In this document: one piece after another, positions 196 to 10,902 of the stretch | Numbering within the stretch: position 1 is the first letter of the stretch | Layout: every line of letters begins with the position of its first letter | NCBI RefSeq assembly: GCF_002735305.1 | Contig: NZ_PDYG01000040.1 | Coordinates: 1-41,320, forward strand | DNA length: 41,320 nt | Direction of reading: 5' to 3' | From: Agathobacter ruminis | Lineage (GTDB): Bacteria > Bacillota > Clostridia > Lachnospirales > Lachnospiraceae | Made by a program: the position numbers and the translations under genes | The notes under the pieces: model-generated | Database searches by the model: none | The model's input: only the letters and a program-made list of their open reading frames with translations | Told to the model about the DNA's origin: nothing

Positions 196-3100
196 TTATT
201 TAAAATAAGCAACGCCGGATTCAAAGATCTTCAAATCCTGCTCTCCGTAAATATTGATTGCAACCGCATCGCCACGGCGTTCAGAATGTGCCATCTTACC
301 AAGCACACGTCCGTCAGGAGATGTGATTCCTTCGATTGCACAATAGGAACCGTTTACATTCCATTCTTCATCCATGGTCGGCTGACCGGCTTCATTTACA
401 TACTGCGTTGCAACCTGTCCGTTTTCGAATAAGCGATCCAGCCATTCCTTCGGCGCTACGAAACGACCTTCTCCGTGTGATGCCGGATTGGTATAGGTCT
501 TTCCGAGTTCTGCCTGTGCAAGCCAAGGGCTCTTGTTCGAAACAACCTTTGTATAAACCATCTTGGAAACATGACGGTTAATGGTATTGTAGGTCAGAGT
601 CGGTGAGTCTGCAGACTGCATACGCACTTCGCCATAAGGCACAAGTCCAAGCTTAATCAATGCCTGGAATCCGTTACAGATACCGAGAGCCAAACCGTCG
701 CGCTCATTTAAGAGGCGTGTGATTGCTTCTGTCATCTTTGCATTTCTAAATGCTGTCGCAAAGAATTTTGCAGATCCTTCCGGTTCATCACCTGCAGAGA
801 ATCCACCCGGGAACATGATGATCTGTGACTGATCGATAGCCTTCGCAAATGCATCTACTGAATCGCGGATATCCTCTGCACTTAAGTTTTTAAATACCTT
901 TACGATCGTATTGGCACCTGCGCGTTCGAAAGCTCTTGCACTATCATACTCGCAGTTTGTTCCAGGGAATACCGGAATAAATACGGTTGGCTTAGCAACT
1001 TTATTCTTGCATACGTAAATTTCTTTTGCCTTGTAAAGACCGGTATCCACCACAGAAGTATCCTCATGTGAACGGGTATGGAACACGCCCTCGAGCTTCT
1101 GTGTCCATGCAGCGATTGCCTGTTCCATCGGAATGCTGACATTATCGCAGTCGATGGTCTTGGTATCGTTGATGAAACCAACAACACTTGCGGTATCGTC
1201 CAGACCTGCCTTGGACAGAATTGCACGAACTGCCTCAAGCTTCTCCACTTCGATTTCGGCCACAATATTACCAAATCCAGGTGCGAACAGAATATCGCTT
1301 GTCACATCATCTTCGATGGTCACACCCAGCTTATTTCCGAATGCCATCTTGGAAACTGCTGCTGCAAGGCCCTTGGAATCCAGAGCATATGCAGAGCGGA
1401 TCAATCCGGCACAAACCATCTCATGGAAGGCATCATATAATTTCATCACCTGTTCATATACAGGCATATCGAACTCATCTTTGTCGATGGTGAAGAGCAC
1501 AAGCTGATTGCCGGCCTTCTTCAATTCAGGCGAAACAATCTCTCTCTCCTTTGCCACATCTACTGCAAATGATACCAGTGTCGGAGGTACATCAATTTCA
1601 TTGAAGGTTCCGGACATGGAATCCTTTCCTCCGATAGAAGGAAGTCCAAAACCAATCTGTGCATTGTAGGCTCCGAGCAGTGCAGCAAACGGCTGACTCC
1701 ATCTGTATGGGTCCTCATTCATTCTGCGGAAATACTCCTGGAATGTCAGACGAATCTTCTTGTAATCACCACCGGTTGCAACAATACGAGAAACAGATTC
1801 AAGCATTGCATAAGCAGCACCATGATATGGGCTCCAGCTTGACAGATACGGATCAAATCCGTAAGCCATCATGGTAACGGTATCGCACTTGCCTTTTGCT
1901 ACAGGAAGTTTTGCTACCATTGACTGCGTCTCTGTCAACTGATAACGACCACCGTATGGCATGAATACGCTTCCTGCTCCGATGGAGCCGTCAAACATCT
2001 CTACGAGTCCCTTTTGAGAGCATACATTCAAATCAGACAGTTCTGCCATCCATGCTGCCTTCATATCGCCACGCGAAAGCGCATCCTCAACTGCAGGCAG
2101 CGCAATCTTCTTGAGATAATTCTCCTTTGGATCCGGCATTTCCACTGCCACATCGGTCTCCTGATGTGCACCATTGGTATCCAGGAAAGCGCGGGAAAGA
2201 TTGACAATTTCCTGGCCTCTCCATACCAATACCAGACGAGGATCTTCTGTGACAACTGCAACTTCTGTTGCCTCTAAGTTTTCTTCTTTTGCATAAGCCA
2301 TAAACTGGTCTACATCTTCCGGTGCAACCACTACAGCCATACGTTCCTGAGACTCGGAAATGGAAAGCTCTGTTCCATCGAGTCCGGCATATTTCTTCGG
2401 AACCTTATCCAACTGAATACGAAGTCCCGGAGCCAATTCTCCGATTGCGACAGATACACCGCCGGCACCGAAGTCATTACATTTTTTGATGATATGAGAT
2501 ACTTCCTCACGGCGGAATAATCTCTGAAGCTTACGCTCTGTAGGCGCATTTCCCTTTTGTACTTCTGCACCGCATACAGAGGTAGATTCTGTATTATGTG
2601 CTTTAGAAGAACCGGTTGCACCACCGATTCCATCACGTCCGGTGCGTCCACCCAAAAGGATGATCTTATCACCCGGATCGGAATTTAATCTCTGTACTGC
2701 GCGTCTTGGAGCAGCACCCATAACCGCACCGATTTCCATACGCTTTGCAACATAATCAGGATGATATACTTCTTTGACATATCCTGTTGCAAGACCAATC
2801 TGGTTTCCGTATGAGCTGTATCCATGAGCAGCTTCGCGTACAAGCTTCTTCTGCGGAAGCTTGCCTTCGATGGTATCCTTTACCGCAACGGTAGGATCAG
2901 CAGCACCGGTTACACGCATTGCCTGATATACATAGGTTCTGCCTGAAAGCGGATCGCGGATCGCGCCACCAAGACAGGTTGCAGCGCCACCGAACGGTTC
3001 AATTTCTGTTGGATGATTATGTGTCTCATTTTTGAAGTTTACAAGCCACTCTTCTGTCTTGCCATCCACTTCAACAGGAACTACGATGGAGCAGGCATTG

Positions 3101-4128: not shown

Positions 4129-6471
4129 TTAGTCATTTTGCCAAAATTTGCGAACCACTTCCGATATTTGTTCGCAGTTGACGGTCCGGGCATGCTCCCA
4201 TTCGATTGGAAACAGGCCCTTGTATTCATGCGACAAAAATCTTCGATCGAGCAGAATCATGATTCCTCGATCCGACGTTGTCCGAATCACGCGTCCTGCC
4301 GCCTGCAAGACCTTGTTGAGCCCCGGATAGCGATAAGCATAATCGAATCCGCTCTCATCATTTGAATCATAATAATTCTTCAAGATTTCCTGCTCATTGG
4401 ACACCTGCGGCAGTCCGGTGCCGACAACAATCGCTCCGATCAGACGGTCCTCCTTCAGATCGATGCCCTCACCAAAGATGCCTCCCATCACACAAAATGC
4501 CAACAGCGAATCGTCTGTCTGTTCTTCAAACTGCGCCAAGAATTCCTCCCTCTGCGCCTCATTCATATGATTCGTCTGCAGCAGCATTTTCACAGGCAAT
4601 GTGCTTTCTTCGCAACGTTCTTCAAACACTGCTGCCACATCCTGCATCATGCGGTATGAAGGGAAAAAGGCCATATAATTGCCCTGCTTTTCCATCACCA
4701 CCCTGATCAGATACTCCGCAATCTTTTCGTAGCTTGCGCGCCCGCGCTCGGTATATTTGGTGCTGACATCATTGCCAAAGGCGATCAGACTCTGCTCCTT
4801 CTCAAATACCGAATGCGCATAGACCGCATAATTGTCGGTTCTCGTCGAAAGCAGACGCTTATAATACTGAATCGGAAGCAGGGTCGCAGAAAAAAAGATG
4901 GTCGCTCTGGCCTTGTCGATACAATTCTGCAAATTCTCCGACGGGTCCACGTTGAACAGTTTGATGCGAAATCTTCCATCCTCCGTCTGCTCCGTATAAA
5001 TCACATACTTTTCCGCAGTCAGATCATATATTTCAAGGAAATTGCGCAATGCAAAATAAAACTCCGTCACCTCTTTGCGCTCCGGGTATTCCGGATGCTT
5101 CTTTTGGAATTCGTTGAGTTCCGTTGCAAGTCGCATCAGAGAATACAGGAATCCACCGATGTCCTCATAGGTTCGGTATGTCTCGCATTCGCGCTTGTAT
5201 TCGAGCATGGTCTTGTTGCATTTTTCGCACAGTTTGGACAGATACGGATGATACTGCTTTAAGATGCGCTTCATCGTTAGGAAATCTTCTTTGTACAGCT
5301 CGGCAGAATACATTTCCCGGCTTCGGTCAACCAGATTATGCGCCTCATCCACAAGAAAAATATAATCGCCGCGCGTCCCCTCCGCGAAAAACCGCTTCAG
5401 ATATACATGCGGATCAAATACATAATTGTAATCGCATATGATGTCATCGCACCAGGATGAAATATCCAATGCCATCTCAAACGGACAGACCTGATATCGT
5501 TCGGCCTGCGCAAGGATTTCTTCTCTCGTAAAGACATTTCCATGCTGTAGGATATCAAAGACCGCATCATTGACGCGGTCAAAGTGCCCTTTTGCATACG
5601 GGCATTGAACCGGATTACATTCCATAGTCTCACACGGACATAGTTTTTCCTTTGCAGTTAACTGAATCAGTTTTGCCTGATATCCGTTTGTCTGCAGCAA
5701 ATCATAAGTTTCTTTTGCAACCGATGCCGTAATCGTTTTGGCTGTCAGATAAAAAATACGATCGCCCTTGTTTTCTCCCACGGCTTTGACCGCCGGAAAG
5801 AATGTGGAAATCGTCTTGCCGACACCGGTTGGCGCCTGGAGAAACAATGTCTTTCCTCGCGCAATGGTCCGATATACATCTGCCACCAGTTTCTTTTGTC
5901 CTTCACGATAAGGGAACGGGAATTCCAATGGTTTAATCGATGCGTTTCTCTTCTGCTTCCAGTGATATTCAAAATCCGACCACTTCTTGTAGGCAAGCAG
6001 AGTCTCCTCAAACCAGGTCTGAATCTCTTCAAACGAGTATTCAAACCTGAAATATTTCTTTTCTTCGGTATCCAGATTGACATATGTCATCTGAACACCG
6101 ATTTCATCGAGTGCATGATCATTTGCAAAAATAAACGCGTAGCACATCGCCTGCGCCTGATGAACGAAGATCGGCTCGGTAAATGATTCCACCTTCTGGT
6201 ACATTCCCTTGATTTCATCGACAAAGGTCTTTTGATCTTCCATAAAGATTCCGTCAGCACGACCCTCAATCACCAGATCATATTCGTCGTATTTTTTTGC
6301 ATACTTTAAGGGAACCTCCGCCTGATAAGAGGTTCCCATGGATTTTTGTATTTTGCGATGGATACGCAAACCTTCTTGCATTGCTTCAGGGCTGTTCGCG
6401 CGTCCCCTGTTATCTATATCTCCGGAGCGAAAAATAAATTCCACGAGATTTCGAACCGAAACATTTGGCAT
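4129..6471 (-). CDS. PD-(D/E)XK nuclease / XPD-DinG family Fe-S helicase fusion
   Basis: A 780-residue superfamily 2 DNA helicase of the Rad3/XPD/DinG type with a RecB/Cas4-like nuclease domain in front. The nuclease signature is visible: GRAD (Asp73), DEIK (residues 85-88) and a QxxxY motif (107-111). The helicase part has Walker A APTGVGKT (213-220), a DEAH box (375-378) and a motif VI QAAGRVIR near the C-terminus. Between Walker A and DEAH lies a Cys-rich insert (Cys 278, 280, 285, 290, then 329, 341, 346) that probably holds the [4Fe-4S] cluster of this family. It is expected to unwind and trim DNA during repair; the substrate is unknown. It is the last gene of a three-gene run, 12 bp behind the upstream gene, with an AAGGG ribosome site before the ATG. 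Confidence 0.88.
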   Translation of the reverse strand: MPNVSVRNLVEFIFRSGDIDNRGRANSPEAMQEGLRIHRKIQKSMGTSYQAEVPLKYAKKYDEYDLVIEGRADGIFMEDQKTFVDEIKGMYQKVESFTEPIFVHQAQAMCYAFIFANDHALDEIGVQMTYVNLDTEEKKYFRFEYSFEEIQTWFEETLLAYKKWSDFEYHWKQKRNASIKPLEFPFPYREGQKKLVADVYRTIARGKTLFLQAPTGVGKTISTFFPAVKAVGENKGDRIFYLTAKTITASVAKETYDLLQTNGYQAKLIQLTAKEKLCPCETMECNPVQCPYAKGHFDRVNDAVFDILQHGNVFTREEILAQAERYQVCPFEMALDISSWCDDIICDYNYVFDPHVYLKRFFAEGTRGDYIFLVDEAHNLVDRSREMYSAELYKEDFLTMKRILKQYHPYLSKLCEKCNKTMLEYKRECETYRTYEDIGGFLYSLMRLATELNEFQKKHPEYPERKEVTEFYFALRNFLEIYDLTAEKYVIYTEQTEDGRFRIKLFNVDPSENLQNCIDKARATIFFSATLLPIQYYKRLLSTRTDNYAVYAHSVFEKEQSLIAFGNDVSTKYTERGRASYEKIAEYLIRVVMEKQGNYMAFFPSYRMMQDVAAVFEERCEESTLPVKMLLQTNHMNEAQREEFLAQFEEQTDDSLLAFCVMGGIFGEGIDLKEDRLIGAIVVGTGLPQVSNEQEILKNYYDSNDESGFDYAYRYPGLNKVLQAAGRVIRTTSDRGIMILLDRRFLSHEYKGLFPIEWEHARTVNCEQISEVVRKFWQND

Positions 6472-6483
6472 AAACTCATTCCC

Positions 6484-8724
6484 TTACATCTGATAATATT
6501 TCAGGTTTTCCTTGAATTCAGCCGTAATCTCACCACCGGCCTTTTCATAACGATCATAGAGCATATTCAATCGCTGCTCATTCTTCAGATTCTCCGCATT
6601 GAGTTTTCGGAATGCATTCTCGTACATCGGATTCAGATTCAGTCCTGCGCGAATATCGGCAGCAAACGGACAATATGTCACCAGAATATTTCTTGCCACC
6701 TTATTCAGACGGAATCCGCCCTTAGACTCATATTTGAGCCAGTTTACATAATCTTTGACAAATACTTCCCGATAGCTGTTCTTTGCGCGTGTCAGCTGGC
6801 TTTTGACCTTCTCTCGCGCCTCCTGTGAAAGATCATGATTTTTCTTGTAGAATTGCAGATAATCCGAATATTCCGCAGTCAGACTCTTTTCACGGATGTC
6901 ATTCCATCTGACACCCATGACATGCTTGCAATATTCCCAACGATATCTCGCCACCAGTTCAATCATCTGCTCACTCAAATCCATAGAGCTAAAGATTGGC
7001 AACAGGAAGCGGCCCGGCGTTGCCGAACGGATGCCTGCGGTCTCCTGCCACATCATACCTTTGCTTCCGAGCGTTGGCATCAGAATCACATATGGCAGAA
7101 TTTCTTTTTTGAAGGTTTCATTGTTGATGCCATGCTCCGGATCCACAAACTGGACATCGTGGAAGAACGCCTGATAATCGATATTGCGCACTTCATTCAT
7201 GGCTTCACGAATCTTCTCCGCAGTCACTGCCATCTTCTCAACCGAAGACATCATCTCTTCTCCCGACAATACCGGCAGGAAGGAAGTCACGCGACCATAG
7301 GTGATGCGATGACCTGACGTAAACATATTGCGAATTTCAAATTTTACCTTTTCATCCTGGTTGGTCTTTAATTCTGCCATCTGTTCCGCAGTAATACGAC
7401 CGTTCTTCTTTTCATCCACCAGATATTGATTATAATCCATATCCAGCTCGCTGCGGGAAGGTTCCTCCTCTCCGCGATAGATTTTGCACAGCCATTCATA
7501 TGCCGTCACAACATTGGCTGAGCGGAAGAAGCTCATTCGTTCCACCAGACTGACCAGTGAATTGATCTTGTCTTCACCCAGAAAATCCACATCCATGAAT
7601 CCAAAATTAAAGAACATCACCATGACAGGATCAAGTTCTTCATTTTCTTTTACGGAGCGCATAAATGCCTTCTCATAAATATCATAGAAAGTCTTGGTAA
7701 TGCGCTTCTTAATCTGGAACTGCTCCGGCTCGAGCGATGATTTGTCCGGAATTTCACGGAAATCATCGAGATCTTTCTTGTATGCCTGTGCCTGGGCAGT
7801 TTCAAATCCGGCATATTTCATAATATGTTCTACACAATCAATGCGTGTTACATCAAAATACTCCTTCTTGTCCTTCACCTGACTGTAATTTTCATTGGCC
7901 TGCTCGCAGGCACCAATTTGTCCCTTTGTGAAGATGCCGAGCTTTTTCATCAATTCGATGACACGATTTAAGGAATCCTTAATCTGATCCGTCGGCTTTG
8001 ATTCAGCATGAAGTGTCGTAGCCAGATCGTATAACAAATGAAACAGTCCGTCTTCATGCTCACTGTATATGATATCCTTGTTGAACATCAGATAGTTGAC
8101 CATCTCTTCGATTCCCTGTGTCACACGGCGCATCTGTGCGGATGCTTCCATAATCGCACCGACCGTCAGAGCTTCGTCTTTCATCATCATTTGCATATAT
8201 TCCGAGAAATATTTGCCGACAAGGCTATTGCAAAAATGGATTTCCCAATCTGCTGCCTTGTGTGTCATAAAGATTGGCTCAAAGTTCTCAATCTTCGGGA
8301 ACGGACGCTCCGGAATCATATTTTCCTGCGCAATCTCGCTGTATTCTGTATAAAAGCGCTCCGTGTAGGAATGCATCATATAGCATTTTGTGCTTAATTT
8401 GGAATACAAACTAAATGCTTTATGTCTTTGCATAATTGCGGCACGCAAAAAAAGCGGTCTAAAATTACCATGTGTACGAAGTAATTTTTCCAGATCCGCC
8501 GCATCCTTACAAGGAATCACGATCAGTGTCGTATCCTCTTTTGCGACATAATCACAAATAAACCATTCCGCTTCGAGAATTCCAATGATGGAATTGGTTT
8601 CCAGCTCGATATCTTCCAGTTCGAACTTTTGCAAAACAGTACCTTTTTGAACAAGATACCATTCCATCACTTTATCGGAGCGGGATGCAATGACCTGTCC
8701 CTTTTTGAACTCTAAAACCTTCAT
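6484..8724 (-). CDS. Large protein with N-terminal cyclic-nucleotide-binding-like domain, function unknown
   Basis: 746 residues. The first 110 or so resemble a CRP/CAP-type cNMP-binding beta-barrel. The phosphate-binding cassette is not conserved: the stretch around SIIGILEAEWF lacks the usual GE...R pattern, so nucleotide binding is doubtful. No helix-turn-helix follows. The remaining 630 residues are mostly helical, soluble and charged, without transmembrane segments or a motif I recognise. Known CNB proteins use the domain as a sensor or docking module, so a sensor/scaffold role is inference only. The gene lies 14 bp downstream of the OhrR-type regulator and 12 bp upstream of the nuclease-helicase, implying one transcript. 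The ATG at 8724 is preceded by GGGGG. Confidence 0.75.
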   Translation of the reverse strand: MKVLEFKKGQVIASRSDKVMEWYLVQKGTVLQKFELEDIELETNSIIGILEAEWFICDYVAKEDTTLIVIPCKDAADLEKLLRTHGNFRPLFLRAAIMQRHKAFSLYSKLSTKCYMMHSYTERFYTEYSEIAQENMIPERPFPKIENFEPIFMTHKAADWEIHFCNSLVGKYFSEYMQMMMKDEALTVGAIMEASAQMRRVTQGIEEMVNYLMFNKDIIYSEHEDGLFHLLYDLATTLHAESKPTDQIKDSLNRVIELMKKLGIFTKGQIGACEQANENYSQVKDKKEYFDVTRIDCVEHIMKYAGFETAQAQAYKKDLDDFREIPDKSSLEPEQFQIKKRITKTFYDIYEKAFMRSVKENEELDPVMVMFFNFGFMDVDFLGEDKINSLVSLVERMSFFRSANVVTAYEWLCKIYRGEEEPSRSELDMDYNQYLVDEKKNGRITAEQMAELKTNQDEKVKFEIRNMFTSGHRITYGRVTSFLPVLSGEEMMSSVEKMAVTAEKIREAMNEVRNIDYQAFFHDVQFVDPEHGINNETFKKEILPYVILMPTLGSKGMMWQETAGIRSATPGRFLLPIFSSMDLSEQMIELVARYRWEYCKHVMGVRWNDIREKSLTAEYSDYLQFYKKNHDLSQEAREKVKSQLTRAKNSYREVFVKDYVNWLKYESKGGFRLNKVARNILVTYCPFAADIRAGLNLNPMYENAFRKLNAENLKNEQRLNMLYDRYEKAGGEITAEFKENLKYYQM

Positions 8725-8738
8725 AAAGCCCCCATTAA

Positions 8739-9176
8739 TTAATCTGTAACCTGTTCGAGAATGTTATGCAATACTTTGCTCAACAGTTTTGCTTCTTCCT
8801 GTGAGATGGTAAAGCAACTTCCCATTTTCATCGGAATCATGACTGCTTTCTCTTTCAGCTTCTCTCCCTTTTCTGTAATGGTTACATTCAGGATTCTCTC
8901 ATCACTCTCATCGCGTTGTCTGGTCACATAGCCTTTCTGCTCAAGTTTCTTCAAAACCGGAGTCAGTGTCCCAGAATCCAGATACAGATATTCCCCCATC
9001 TGTTTCACATTCATGGCCTTGTGCTCCCAGAGAACCATCATGGAGATATATTGTGTATAAGTCAGATCTATCTCATCCAGAAATGGCTTATATTTACGCA
9101 CAATCTCCTTGGAACATGCGTATAACGGAAAACACAGCTGGTTTTCCAATTTTAAAACATCATACTTGTCACTCAT
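8739..9176 (-). CDS. ohrR: MarR-family peroxide sensor, OhrR type
   Basis: A 145-residue winged-helix repressor. The N-terminal LENQLCFPLYAC matches Bacillus OhrR closely and puts the reactive cysteine at position 15, its position in B. subtilis OhrR. The recognition region LYLDSGTLTPVLKKLEQKG is the hallmark of this subgroup. Two more cysteines (21 and 121) could form a disulfide, but Cys15 alone suffices in one-Cys OhrR proteins. Oxidation by organic hydroperoxide or hypochlorite normally releases the DNA. No ohr peroxidase gene is in the window. The gene instead leads an operon with the CNB-like protein and the nuclease-helicase, and a matching operator lies in the promoter of the neighbouring flavoprotein. 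The ribosome site is AGGGAG. I could not find a convincing promoter in 9177-9236. Confidence 0.9.
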   Translation of the reverse strand: MSDKYDVLKLENQLCFPLYACSKEIVRKYKPFLDEIDLTYTQYISMMVLWEHKAMNVKQMGEYLYLDSGTLTPVLKKLEQKGYVTRQRDESDERILNVTITEKGEKLKEKAVMIPMKMGSCFTISQEEAKLLSKVLHNILEQVTD

Positions 9177-9236
9177 TCTTTCTCCCTCTACTTTTTTCGA
9201 TTTTACATTTTCACTTGCAACATATTCCTATATCAT

Positions 9237-9287
9237 AAAAAAACTTGCATACAATAAAAATATCACTAATTTCTATTGTACGCAAGT
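9237..9287 (-). terminator. Terminator behind the flavoprotein gene
   Basis: Arms 9243-9255 and 9275-9287 pair over 13 bp with one mismatch and a 19-nt loop. On the minus strand seven T follow (plus-strand A-run 9237-9243). It starts 16 bp past the stop of the flavoprotein gene, so a terminator is the simplest reading. The inner arms read TACAAT and ATTGTA, the half-sites of OhrR operators, but they are too far apart for a normal dimer site. Confidence 0.75.
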
Positions 9288-9302
9288 AAATTGTCCTTTT
9301 CG

Positions 9303-10160
9303 CTATGCAAGTTTGCTCAGATATTCAATGACACTGTGAGATGCCACATTTCCTTCGCCCATTGCTTTTGTATACTGATATGGGCGACCGGTGCAATCTC
9401 CTGCTGCAAAAACACCCGGAAGATTGGTCTCCATCATACGGTTTACTTTGATATGACCATTCTCCGATTCCAGATTCGGCAACAGATTGGAAAGTGCAAT
9501 CGAATCACGAAGGAAGAATACGCCATCCACTTCCGTTCTGCTCTCATCCTTTCCGATTACCGCTTCCACATGATCGGCTCCTTCGACAGCTGTCAGTCTG
9601 GTATTCATAATCTCAACATTGTCTGCAACTGCTGCCGGCTCAACATATTCCTTGAACAGATAAACATGCTCTGCAAGTTCCGAAAGGAATGTAATCTCAT
9701 GTTCAAAGCGCTTTGAATTGCACAGTACCGCAATTTTCTTTCCGCGATACAGCCCGCCGTCACAGGTCGCACAATAGCTGACACCCTTGCCAAGCAGTTC
9801 AGACTCTCCCGGAAGTGTCATCTTGTTTGCAACACCCGTTGTCAGGATTACGCTCTTTGTCTCATAATAATCGCTGCCTGCCATCAAAGCATAAGTTTGT
9901 CCCATCGGCATGATCTGATTGACCATCTTTTCGGTCACTTCAATTTCCATTTCCTTCATCTGCTGCAAAAATGCATCAATCAGCTTTTCGCCGGAGATGT
10001 TTGCAAATCCCGGATAATTGGAAATCCGCTCTGCCTTTCTGATCTTATCACTCAGATTTTTGCTTCCGAGCCAAAGAAAATTCTTATTATGTATTTTCAG
10101 GTTCAATGCTGCTTCAAGTCCGGCAGGACCGCTTCCAACAATCACACAATCGTATACCAT
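9303..10160 (-). CDS. Thioredoxin-reductase-like flavoprotein lacking NADPH motifs (FFTR-like)
   Basis: 285 residues. The FAD-binding GSGPAG is at 9-14, the redox-active CATC at 130-133 and the FAD motif GVFAAGDC near the C-terminus. The fold and the active disulfide match thioredoxin reductase. The two NADPH elements of normal enzymes are gone: GGGNTA is replaced by CNSKRF (147-152) and HRR by FKE (169-171). The clostridial flexible flavin thioredoxin reductases lack the same motifs and take electrons from ferredoxin, so I infer the same donor here. An electron acceptor other than thioredoxin is possible; no trxA is adjacent. The start is the ATG at 10160, 8 nt after GGAGG. An upstream in-frame ATG at 10175 has the GGAGG inside it and is unlikely. 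Its promoter carries an OhrR-like operator. Confidence 0.85.
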   Translation of the reverse strand: MVYDCVIVGSGPAGLEAALNLKIHNKNFLWLGSKNLSDKIRKAERISNYPGFANISGEKLIDAFLQQMKEMEIEVTEKMVNQIMPMGQTYALMAGSDYYETKSVILTTGVANKMTLPGESELLGKGVSYCATCDGGLYRGKKIAVLCNSKRFEHEITFLSELAEHVYLFKEYVEPAAVADNVEIMNTRLTAVEGADHVEAVIGKDESRTEVDGVFFLRDSIALSNLLPNLESENGHIKVNRMMETNLPGVFAAGDCTGRPYQYTKAMGEGNVASHSVIEYLSKLA

Positions 10161-10201
10161 ATCTTCTACCTCCATTTTGTTCGAATCAACTGTATGTTTG
10201 G

Positions 10202-10230
10202 ATTGTACACAATTAAATTGTACTTGTCAA
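10202..10230 (-). promoter_or_regulatory. Flavoprotein promoter with OhrR-like operator in the spacer
   Basis: On the minus strand a consensus -35 TTGACA (10225-10230), a 17-bp spacer and -10 TACAAT (10202-10207) form a strong sigma-A promoter. The palindrome ACAATT-A-AATTGT (10209-10221) lies wholly in the spacer. A second overlapping repeat, ATTGT-AC-ACAAT (10202-10213), covers the -10. The sequence closely resembles the TACAATT/AATTGTA operator of Bacillus ohrA as I recall it. A repressor bound here would block polymerase. Confidence 0.85.
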
Positions 10231-10243
10231 CACTTTTTTAACA

Positions 10244-10272
10244 TTGCGAAGATTTTTATCTCGTTCTATAAT
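10244..10272 (+). promoter_or_regulatory. Promoter of the rhomboid gene
   Basis: TTGCGA (10244-10249), a 17-bp spacer and a perfect TATAAT (10267-10272) stand 33 bp before the rhomboid ATG. It diverges from the flavoprotein promoter; the -35 boxes are 13 bp apart, so a protein bound at one could affect the other. Confidence 0.75.
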
Positions 10273-10305
10273 AAGCAATAGACTTGAAAAGGAACAATCT
10301 ACATT

Positions 10306-10902
10306 ATGAATTCAGAGAAAAAAAGACTTTATGAACCGGCAAGAGTCATTGCCGTTTGCATTTTAATCGGGTTGCTTGCCGCAATCTATTTTGTTGTCGG
10401 CGATGGTGCCGCAGTCCGCTTTGGAGACAATTATGAAACCGTATGGGTACAGCATGATTTTTATCGTCTTTTCACAGCGATCTTCATGCATGCGGATTTT
10501 CATCATTTATGGAACAATTGCCTCTCACTTTTGATTCTGGGCCTGGCATTTACCAGAAAAAGCAAACCAATCACCTTTTATTTTATCTTTTTGGCTGGAG
10601 GACTCATCGGCAATATCGGAAGTGTCTTCTACCACGGTATCATGATCCATGACACCACAACCTATTCACTCGGAGCCAGCGGAGCCGTCTATGCCATTCT
10701 CGGTGCGCTGGTCATTGAATCATTTGTGATGGAACACGGCAGCGACCGCTACGGTGCATTGATTTATGCATTTCTCGCACTGGCCATCAGCCTTGAGCAG
10801 CCGCATATCGATCATGCGGCACATCTTTGCGGACTGGTCGCAGGACTCGCACTCGAAGGCGTCCTGCTCTATATACAAACACAAAGGAATCTTTATGATT
10901 GA
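10306..10902 (+). CDS. Rhomboid-family intramembrane serine protease
   Basis: 198 residues with about six hydrophobic segments. The catalytic serine is in GASG (Ser125) and the partner histidine is His173 in AAHLCG. The oxyanion/structural HxxxN motif appears as HHLWNN (residues 66-71). It should cleave transmembrane substrates in the plasma membrane; the substrate is unknown. An AAAGGA site lies a little far (about 12 nt) from the ATG. It overlaps the next gene by 8 bp, so translation of the two is probably coupled. Confidence 0.93.
   Translation: MNSEKKRLYEPARVIAVCILIGLLAAIYFVVGDGAAVRFGDNYETVWVQHDFYRLFTAIFMHADFHHLWNNCLSLLILGLAFTRKSKPITFYFIFLAGGLIGNIGSVFYHGIMIHDTTTYSLGASGAVYAILGALVIESFVMEHGSDRYGALIYAFLALAISLEQPHIDHAAHLCGLVAGLALEGVLLYIQTQRNLYD

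Follow-up and report, generated by a model that had tools for sequence, protein, structure and literature searches.

OhrR regulators have mostly been described as switches of one peroxidase. In S. aureus, SarA, a SarA/MarR-like regulator, acts on the thioredoxin reductase gene trxB, and this pair involves neither OhrR nor a ferredoxin-dependent flavin thioredoxin reductase (FFTR). The OhrR-ohrA pair of B. subtilis, whose target is the Ohr peroxidase, has an operator printed as TACAATTNAATTGTA (PMC6034001). In P. aeruginosa, the OhrR homologue OspR has two needed cysteines, C24 and C134, and controls GPx within a gpx-ospR operon; the excerpt of that paper reports no control of thioredoxin or its reductase (PMC4999210). 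In C. violaceum, thioredoxin returns oxidised OhrR to its reduced form in vitro, which is the feedback that we propose below, but the target is ohrA and the part of the paper at hand does not state that thioredoxin genes are OhrR-controlled (PMC3469484). The same source cites the induction of trxA by organic hydroperoxide in A. tumefaciens and names no regulator there. Lastly, TrxA1-TrxB1 of C. difficile is a clostridial FFTR and TrxA pair serving stress defence; unlike the system proposed here, it is sigma-B-controlled and O2-induced, and the words 'OhrR' and 'MarR' are absent from the main text of the paper (PMC10880999).

We analysed a window of 41,320 nucleotides of the Agathobacter ruminis genome (G000 hereafter), in which an OhrR gene lies just downstream of an FFTR-like gene. 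The sensor is retained and the peroxidase that it would be expected to control is missing. Unlike in B. subtilis, the predicted targets are FFTR, TrxA and GPx, and no Ohr was found. We consider it quite likely, from the sequences compared here, that OhrR acts as a switch over FFTR, TrxA, GPx and probably its own gene in a bacterium without Ohr. The parts of such a circuit are known, as is control of gpx by a member of the OhrR family, the P. aeruginosa OspR. Among open-licence PMC papers, we found no report of OhrR controlling FFTR, trxA or an FFTR-thioredoxin relay, and none in which an organism lacking Ohr places an FFTR/TrxA/GPx relay under OhrR.

The FFTR promoter, its reductase and the OhrR protein

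On the minus strand, the FFTR promoter comprises a -35 hexamer TTGACA (10225-10230), read from the sequence and recovered by the promoter scan, and a -10 hexamer TACAAT (10202-10207), separated by the 17-base spacer AGTACAATTTAATTGTG. It scores 11 out of 12, the highest of five candidates in 9150-10320, with a mean of 3.3 for shuffled sequences. The spacer contains the palindrome ACAATT-N-AATTGT (10209-10221, minus strand), which corresponds to a first register of the OhrR box (consensus in PMC6034001). Its sequence here, ACAATTNAATTGT (ACAATT-A-AATTGT), has no other exact copy within the window. A second repeat, ATTGTG-TACAAT (10202-10213, minus strand), covers the -10, which doubles as its right half; the trxA site has the same repeat. 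The sequence and the scan thus bear out the arrangement described in the initial annotation, a consensus promoter with a palindrome in the spacer and a second repeat over the -10. So does comparison with B. subtilis for the proposed operator type, as TACAATTTAATTGTG agrees with the printed box TACAATTNAATTGTA at all specified bases except the last. Since this OhrR-like box covers both the spacer and the -10, its geometry, as read from the sequence, is of the repressor type. Across the regulon, the prevailing register is [AG]ATTGYRYRCAATTNAATT over the -10 rather than the spacer palindrome alone. Allowing up to two mismatches, five matches to the 13-base palindrome were observed in the window against 4.8 expected, so a mismatched short palindrome is not special, and the palindrome alone was rejected as evidence.

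The reductase gene (9303-10160, minus strand) encodes an FFTR-like protein with a CATC motif and without NADPH motifs, as judged from homology and alignment. Its longest open reading frame begins at 10175; position 10160, 41 bases past the -10, is the likelier start, because GGAGG precedes that ATG, the corresponding gene in the relative G031 begins there and the database protein has 285 residues. The nearest PDB entries are 6gnc, 6gna and 6gnd (E 1.7e-71 to 7e-69), which we take to be clostridial FFTRs, and the next thioredoxin reductase follows at 4e-40. In an alignment with the NADPH-type enzyme of a relative, the CATC motif is present in the protein but neither the GGG..A nor the HRR...R stretch is. 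Published criteria for FFTRs are the loss of the NADPH motifs GxGxxA and HRRxxxR with retention of CxxC (PMC10880999). The score against TIGR01292, the NADPH thioredoxin reductase model, is 194.7 bits for a cut-off of 343.45. On the grounds of this score, the nearest structures and the missing motifs, we rejected an NADPH-type enzyme; the earlier label of a thioredoxin-reductase-like gene stands as to the flavin thioredoxin reductase and is refined to FFTR-like. By homology, the enzyme is probably fed by ferredoxin, as FFTRs draw electrons from ferredoxin and are unable to use NADPH (PMC12796991). The FFTR query found two loci only in the contig collection.

The regulator (8739-9176, minus strand), identified from PDB and family matches, belongs to the MarR family and contains Cys15, Cys21 and Cys121. 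Its best PDB match is B. subtilis OhrR (1z91/1z9c, E 2e-44), followed by SarZ and Xanthomonas OhrR, and it scores 176 bits with the NCBIfam OhrR model NF052638, below the cut-off of 200. It has C15, Y29 and Y40, which are shared by all 42 distinct, near-full, stop-free OhrRs of relatives; Tyr29 and Tyr40 are the tyrosine partners of the N-terminal sensing cysteine in OhrR. By homology, the regulator is an OhrR, in agreement with the sensor gene that had been proposed just downstream of the site. C121 is found in 33 of the 42, and in an ungapped alignment it misses Cys127 of Xanthomonas OhrR, which is presumably the second cysteine of the two-Cys subfamily, by a single column. Neither C21 nor C121 is matched by a cysteine in the aligned B. 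subtilis chain, whose deposited form has a serine at position 15. By our own count in an ungapped alignment, the protein also has Arg94, a DNA contact in OhrR (PMC2650471).

Genome-wide sites and recurrence in relatives

In the genome-wide motif search proposed earlier, the longer 20-base unit exceeded chance. With up to three mismatches, this pattern, ACAATTTAATTGTGTACAAT, occurs at three places in the 2.86 Mb genome, before FFTR, trxA and ohrR, with no match to the backwards control. As the FFTR site supplied the pattern, the other two places constitute the test. The trxA promoter (contig C2 of G000) has the same syntax as that of FFTR, TTGACA-CAACTAATTTAATTGTG-TACAAT with a 17-base spacer and AATTTAATTGTG before the -10. 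The candidate auto-regulatory site before ohrR, ACAATTTACTTGCGTACAAT (9275-9294, minus strand), differs from the FFTR site at two bases, lacks a good -35 and overlaps a hairpin of 19 bp with a trailing run of T (9243-9287, minus strand; z -5.17), probably the FFTR terminator. It is the weakest case among the genome sites; an identical 20-mer stands before ohrR in G031. Over the stretch 9243-9294 (minus strand), where this hairpin and the candidate ohrR promoter and box overlap, a transcript begun past the -10 would miss the left arm of the hairpin and could escape termination. The leader of the gpx gene, whose product most resembles 'Peroxiredoxin HYR1' in sequence, holds a weak site, GATTGAACACAATCGAATT, which by our own count departs from the regulon pattern at two bases. 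Good operator sites precede GPx in relatives, and the G031 orthologue has GATTGTACACAATTTAATC, with one mismatch, at a like place.

A gene census of the assembly, which is 99.5% complete, was made at E <= 0.001. It yielded one PF00085 thioredoxin (13 of 14 control genomes positive), one thioredoxin-reductase-like gene, one GPx, and one full OhrR copy together with two distant MarR matches. In many relatives, the same reductase query found second, more distant, presumably NADPH-type genes. The lack of an ohr gene noted for the window extends to the whole assembly, in which no OsmC-family or Ohr protein was found (12 of 14 control genomes positive), and a hidden Ohr elsewhere in the genome was rejected as a candidate on this basis.

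Among 116 genomes, A. ruminis included, 34 have a near-full OhrR (E <= 3.2e-32); G001, with an OhrR fragment, and G115, with a broken copy, were scored as lacking it. Seven of the 116 have OsmC proteins, none of them inside the genus, and only G084 has both, so that in 33 of the 34 OhrR genomes no Ohr was detected. We examined 30 OhrR loci, our own and 29 among the matches listed. FFTR adjoins OhrR in seven of them (G000, G031, G012, G034, G035, G052 and G054). The neighbour is a near-full GPx in 12, reminiscent of the gpx-ospR arrangement of P. aeruginosa, an NADPH-type thioredoxin reductase with TrxA in two, TrxA in two, a GPx piece at a contig end with a TSCPD protein in one and, by eye, a peroxiredoxin-like protein in one; five have none of these. 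Co-directional FFTR-TrxA-OhrR gene runs are found in G012, G034, G035 and G052. In G034, FFTR is split over two contig ends, one with the box and the gene start and the other with the rest followed by TrxA-OhrR, and the box-bearing GPx-like frame of this genome is short. In G035, the run lies behind two tandem boxes and contains GPx remnants before and after FFTR-TrxA, and in G026, FFTR-TrxA and a full GPx follow one box, OhrR being located elsewhere. The G035 remnants (locus L122, contig C1) span about 2765-3018, shortened inside, and about 4277-4482, a C-terminal piece. The idea that the finding is peculiar to the A. ruminis genome was rejected, since it recurs in relatives, including those of the genus g59.

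The box RATTGYRYRCAATTNAATT, with at most one mismatch, occurs in 37 of the 116 genomes, namely in 21 of the 34 with OhrR against 16 of the 82 without (Fisher p 1.6e-5, an optimistic value because the compared genomes are related). Inside the genus, the corresponding figures are 15 of 21 and 6 of 41. The backwards control gave 13 matches in 11 genomes (own count), and at the cut-off used 13 of the 34 OhrR genomes have no box. Of the 12 box loci examined from genomes without OhrR (G001 aside), eight were flagged as lying inside a reading frame; one of these eight, L079, resembles a metal-transport promoter on reading.

The initial annotation had made its reading depend on the palindrome also preceding orthologues, and this is so in part: with the loosest labels, 10 of the 33 FFTR genes examined from the genus have the box and 23 do not. 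All 10 box-bearing genes are in OhrR genomes, against 9 of the 23 boxless ones. In an FFTR tree of 37 rows, two of them NADPH-type, with box labels set after the sites had been seen, the G000/G031 pair sits within a 22-row clade, the remaining 20 rows of which are labelled boxless, and apart from both the FFTR-TrxA-OhrR clade and G048/G036. The label changes five times under strict labelling, four times under middle and three times under loose labelling. A tree uniting all box-bearing FFTRs by a single origin was rejected (AU p 1.4e-6 with the loosest labels, a value that leaves the post hoc labelling unaccounted for). Judging from these label changes and the rejected one-clade tree, gain or loss of the box has probably happened repeatedly among FFTR genes. 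A partial match lies 78 bases upstream of one FFTR gene that was labelled boxless (L029 of G016).

At the level of the order, exact TTGACA-N11-ATTGYR-TACAAT is present in 105 of 392 genomes, with no control match among the matches listed. We examined 50 loci, 30 listed by the scan and 20 chosen, 19 of the latter for an OhrR-like spacer. GPx, FFTR or OhrR lies behind the promoter in eight of the 30 listed loci and not in the other 22; among the chosen loci, this is so for 19, the exception having been picked as another type. The 23 loci without these genes precede HMGL-like or metal-transport-like genes on reading, and mostly have ATTGTATACAAT with no OhrR half. As these genes carry the same core, ATTGTATACAAT is not diagnostic, and we rejected the idea that the -10 palindrome marks OhrR control on its own. 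OhrR-type sites precede GPx, FFTR or OhrR in 26 of 28 cases against 1 of 22 for other sites, according to a rule written after the sites had been seen and on a sample in which 19 of the 50 loci were selected for the spacer. FFTR-TrxA-OhrR follows a full site in six g59 species (G189, G229, G276, G289, G301 and G436); in all of these but G189, a promoter-operator of the same kind precedes a separate GPx as well. The g59 species G258, G337 and G431 show a GPx site. Loci L132-L135, L141-L153 and L174 have TTGACA-17-TACAAT with the perfect palindrome ATTGTATACAAT before genes read as HMGL-like. Elsewhere, on a contig titled Acholeplasmatales MAG, FFTR-TrxA (L007:1640-2860) stands behind TTGACA-17-TACAAT with ATTGTA before the -10, and no OhrR match is present within the 6.5 kb covered.

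The predicted circuit and competing explanations

We infer a circuit in which dimers of reduced OhrR would occupy the box over the FFTR spacer and -10, blocking RNA polymerase, together with the comparable sites of trxA and, more weakly, those of gpx and ohrR. An organic hydroperoxide would oxidise C15, probably followed by a C15-C121' disulfide, and OhrR would leave the DNA, so that FFTR, TrxA and GPx would rise together. Electrons would then pass from ferredoxin to FFTR, TrxA, GPx and finally the peroxide, and reduced TrxA may re-reduce OhrR, ending the response. The predicted regulon would carry electrons from ferredoxin by way of thioredoxin to a peroxidase of the GPx type. The initial annotation had predicted a peroxide-to-thiol-repair circuit of a different layout. 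The proposed rewired thiol circuit recurs in relatives, and the single trxA with a strong site and the single gpx with a weak one make it look like a peroxide-removal chain, not thiol repair alone. It offers a concrete candidate for how thioredoxin supply might be tied to peroxide in bacteria without Ohr.

Several alternatives must be weighed against a peroxide-responsive OhrR. It may be that OhrR controls these genes but that O2, hypochlorous acid, disulfide stress or sulfane sulfur acts on the same cysteine, in a general thiol-oxidation response. A regulon made of thiol-reducing machinery without Ohr would fit such a signal. Sulfane sulfur has been named as a signal for OhrR of P. aeruginosa (PMC9495516), and in another organism, C. 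difficile, a 'common still uncharacterized regulator' was proposed for the induction of trxA1B1 and trxA2 by 1% O2 (PMC10880999). However, C15, Y29 and Y40 are all retained, and in P. aeruginosa the response of OspR-controlled gpx is strong with organic hydroperoxides and slight with H2O2 or superoxide generators (PMC4999210); we regard a different signal as possible but rather doubtful.

The site might also belong to another regulator, for instance one of the GntR type reading ATTGTATACAAT, with OhrR as a bystander. The same -10 palindrome does precede HMGL-like genes in many genomes and, on reading, a GntR-like gene follows near the ATTGTATACAAT promoter of L174. Nevertheless, the HMGL-like sites mostly have ATTGTATACAAT without the AATTN[AG]ATTG half, and the skew of OhrR-type sites towards GPx, FFTR or OhrR (26 of 28 against 1 of 22, under the post hoc rule) argues for OhrR, making ownership by another regulator improbable. 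An AT-rich strong promoter might also have produced the palindrome incidentally, without any operator function, which would agree with the chance-level count of short palindromes with two mismatches in the window. The rarity of the full site in the genome, the identity of the genes that it precedes, its recurrence before the same genes in another genus and the three to five label changes on the FFTR tree, which amount to repeated gain or loss, make this reading very improbable.

If the peroxide-responsive OhrR circuit holds, it is tempting to speculate further that it forms a closed redox homeostat, in which OhrR controls the sole thioredoxin and the sole reductase and is reset by that same thioredoxin. 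As FFTR is ferredoxin-fed, OhrR would then read the low-potential electron supply besides peroxide. This extension is tentative, and we think it rather unlikely. Were it true, OhrR would stay oxidised upon ferredoxin shortage and the whole thiol system would stay on. The locus would make a simple test bed for asking whether a thiol sensor is reset by a thioredoxin under its own control.

Flanking genes and further regulon candidates

Further genes may belong to the response. In G000, a site resembling the OhrR box with one mismatch (contig C42, 40019-40037; L110:2520) precedes a TtcA-like gene, which matches the NCBIfam TtcA model at 1.6e-57, below its cut-off. The TtcA-like gene is a possible further regulon member. 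A one-mismatch site likewise stands before a gene read as TtcA-like in G034 (contig C26; L115:2157). A TSCPD-domain protein, assigned to TIGR03905 at L058:1163-1441, lies upstream of OhrR, and on reading, TSCPD-like proteins are found upstream of OhrR, often after GPx, in L055, L056, L060, L062, L136, L138, L139 and L140. This protein is a candidate member of the peroxide response.

Downstream of ohrR, a gene for a 746-residue protein (6484-8724, minus strand) begins after 14 bases and occupies the same place in G031; it matches nothing in Pfam or in NCBIfam at E <= 0.001 and is likely part of the ohrR operon. On the other side, a gene of the Rhomboid family (Pfam PF01694; 10306-10902, plus strand) diverges from FFTR. 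The promoter scan places a promoter-like TTGCGA-17-TATAAT before it (10244-10272, plus strand), which begins 13 bases from the OhrR site, and the rhomboid promoter may feel OhrR bound at 10202-10230. In G031, the start of a gene read as rhomboid-like is likewise divergent from FFTR.
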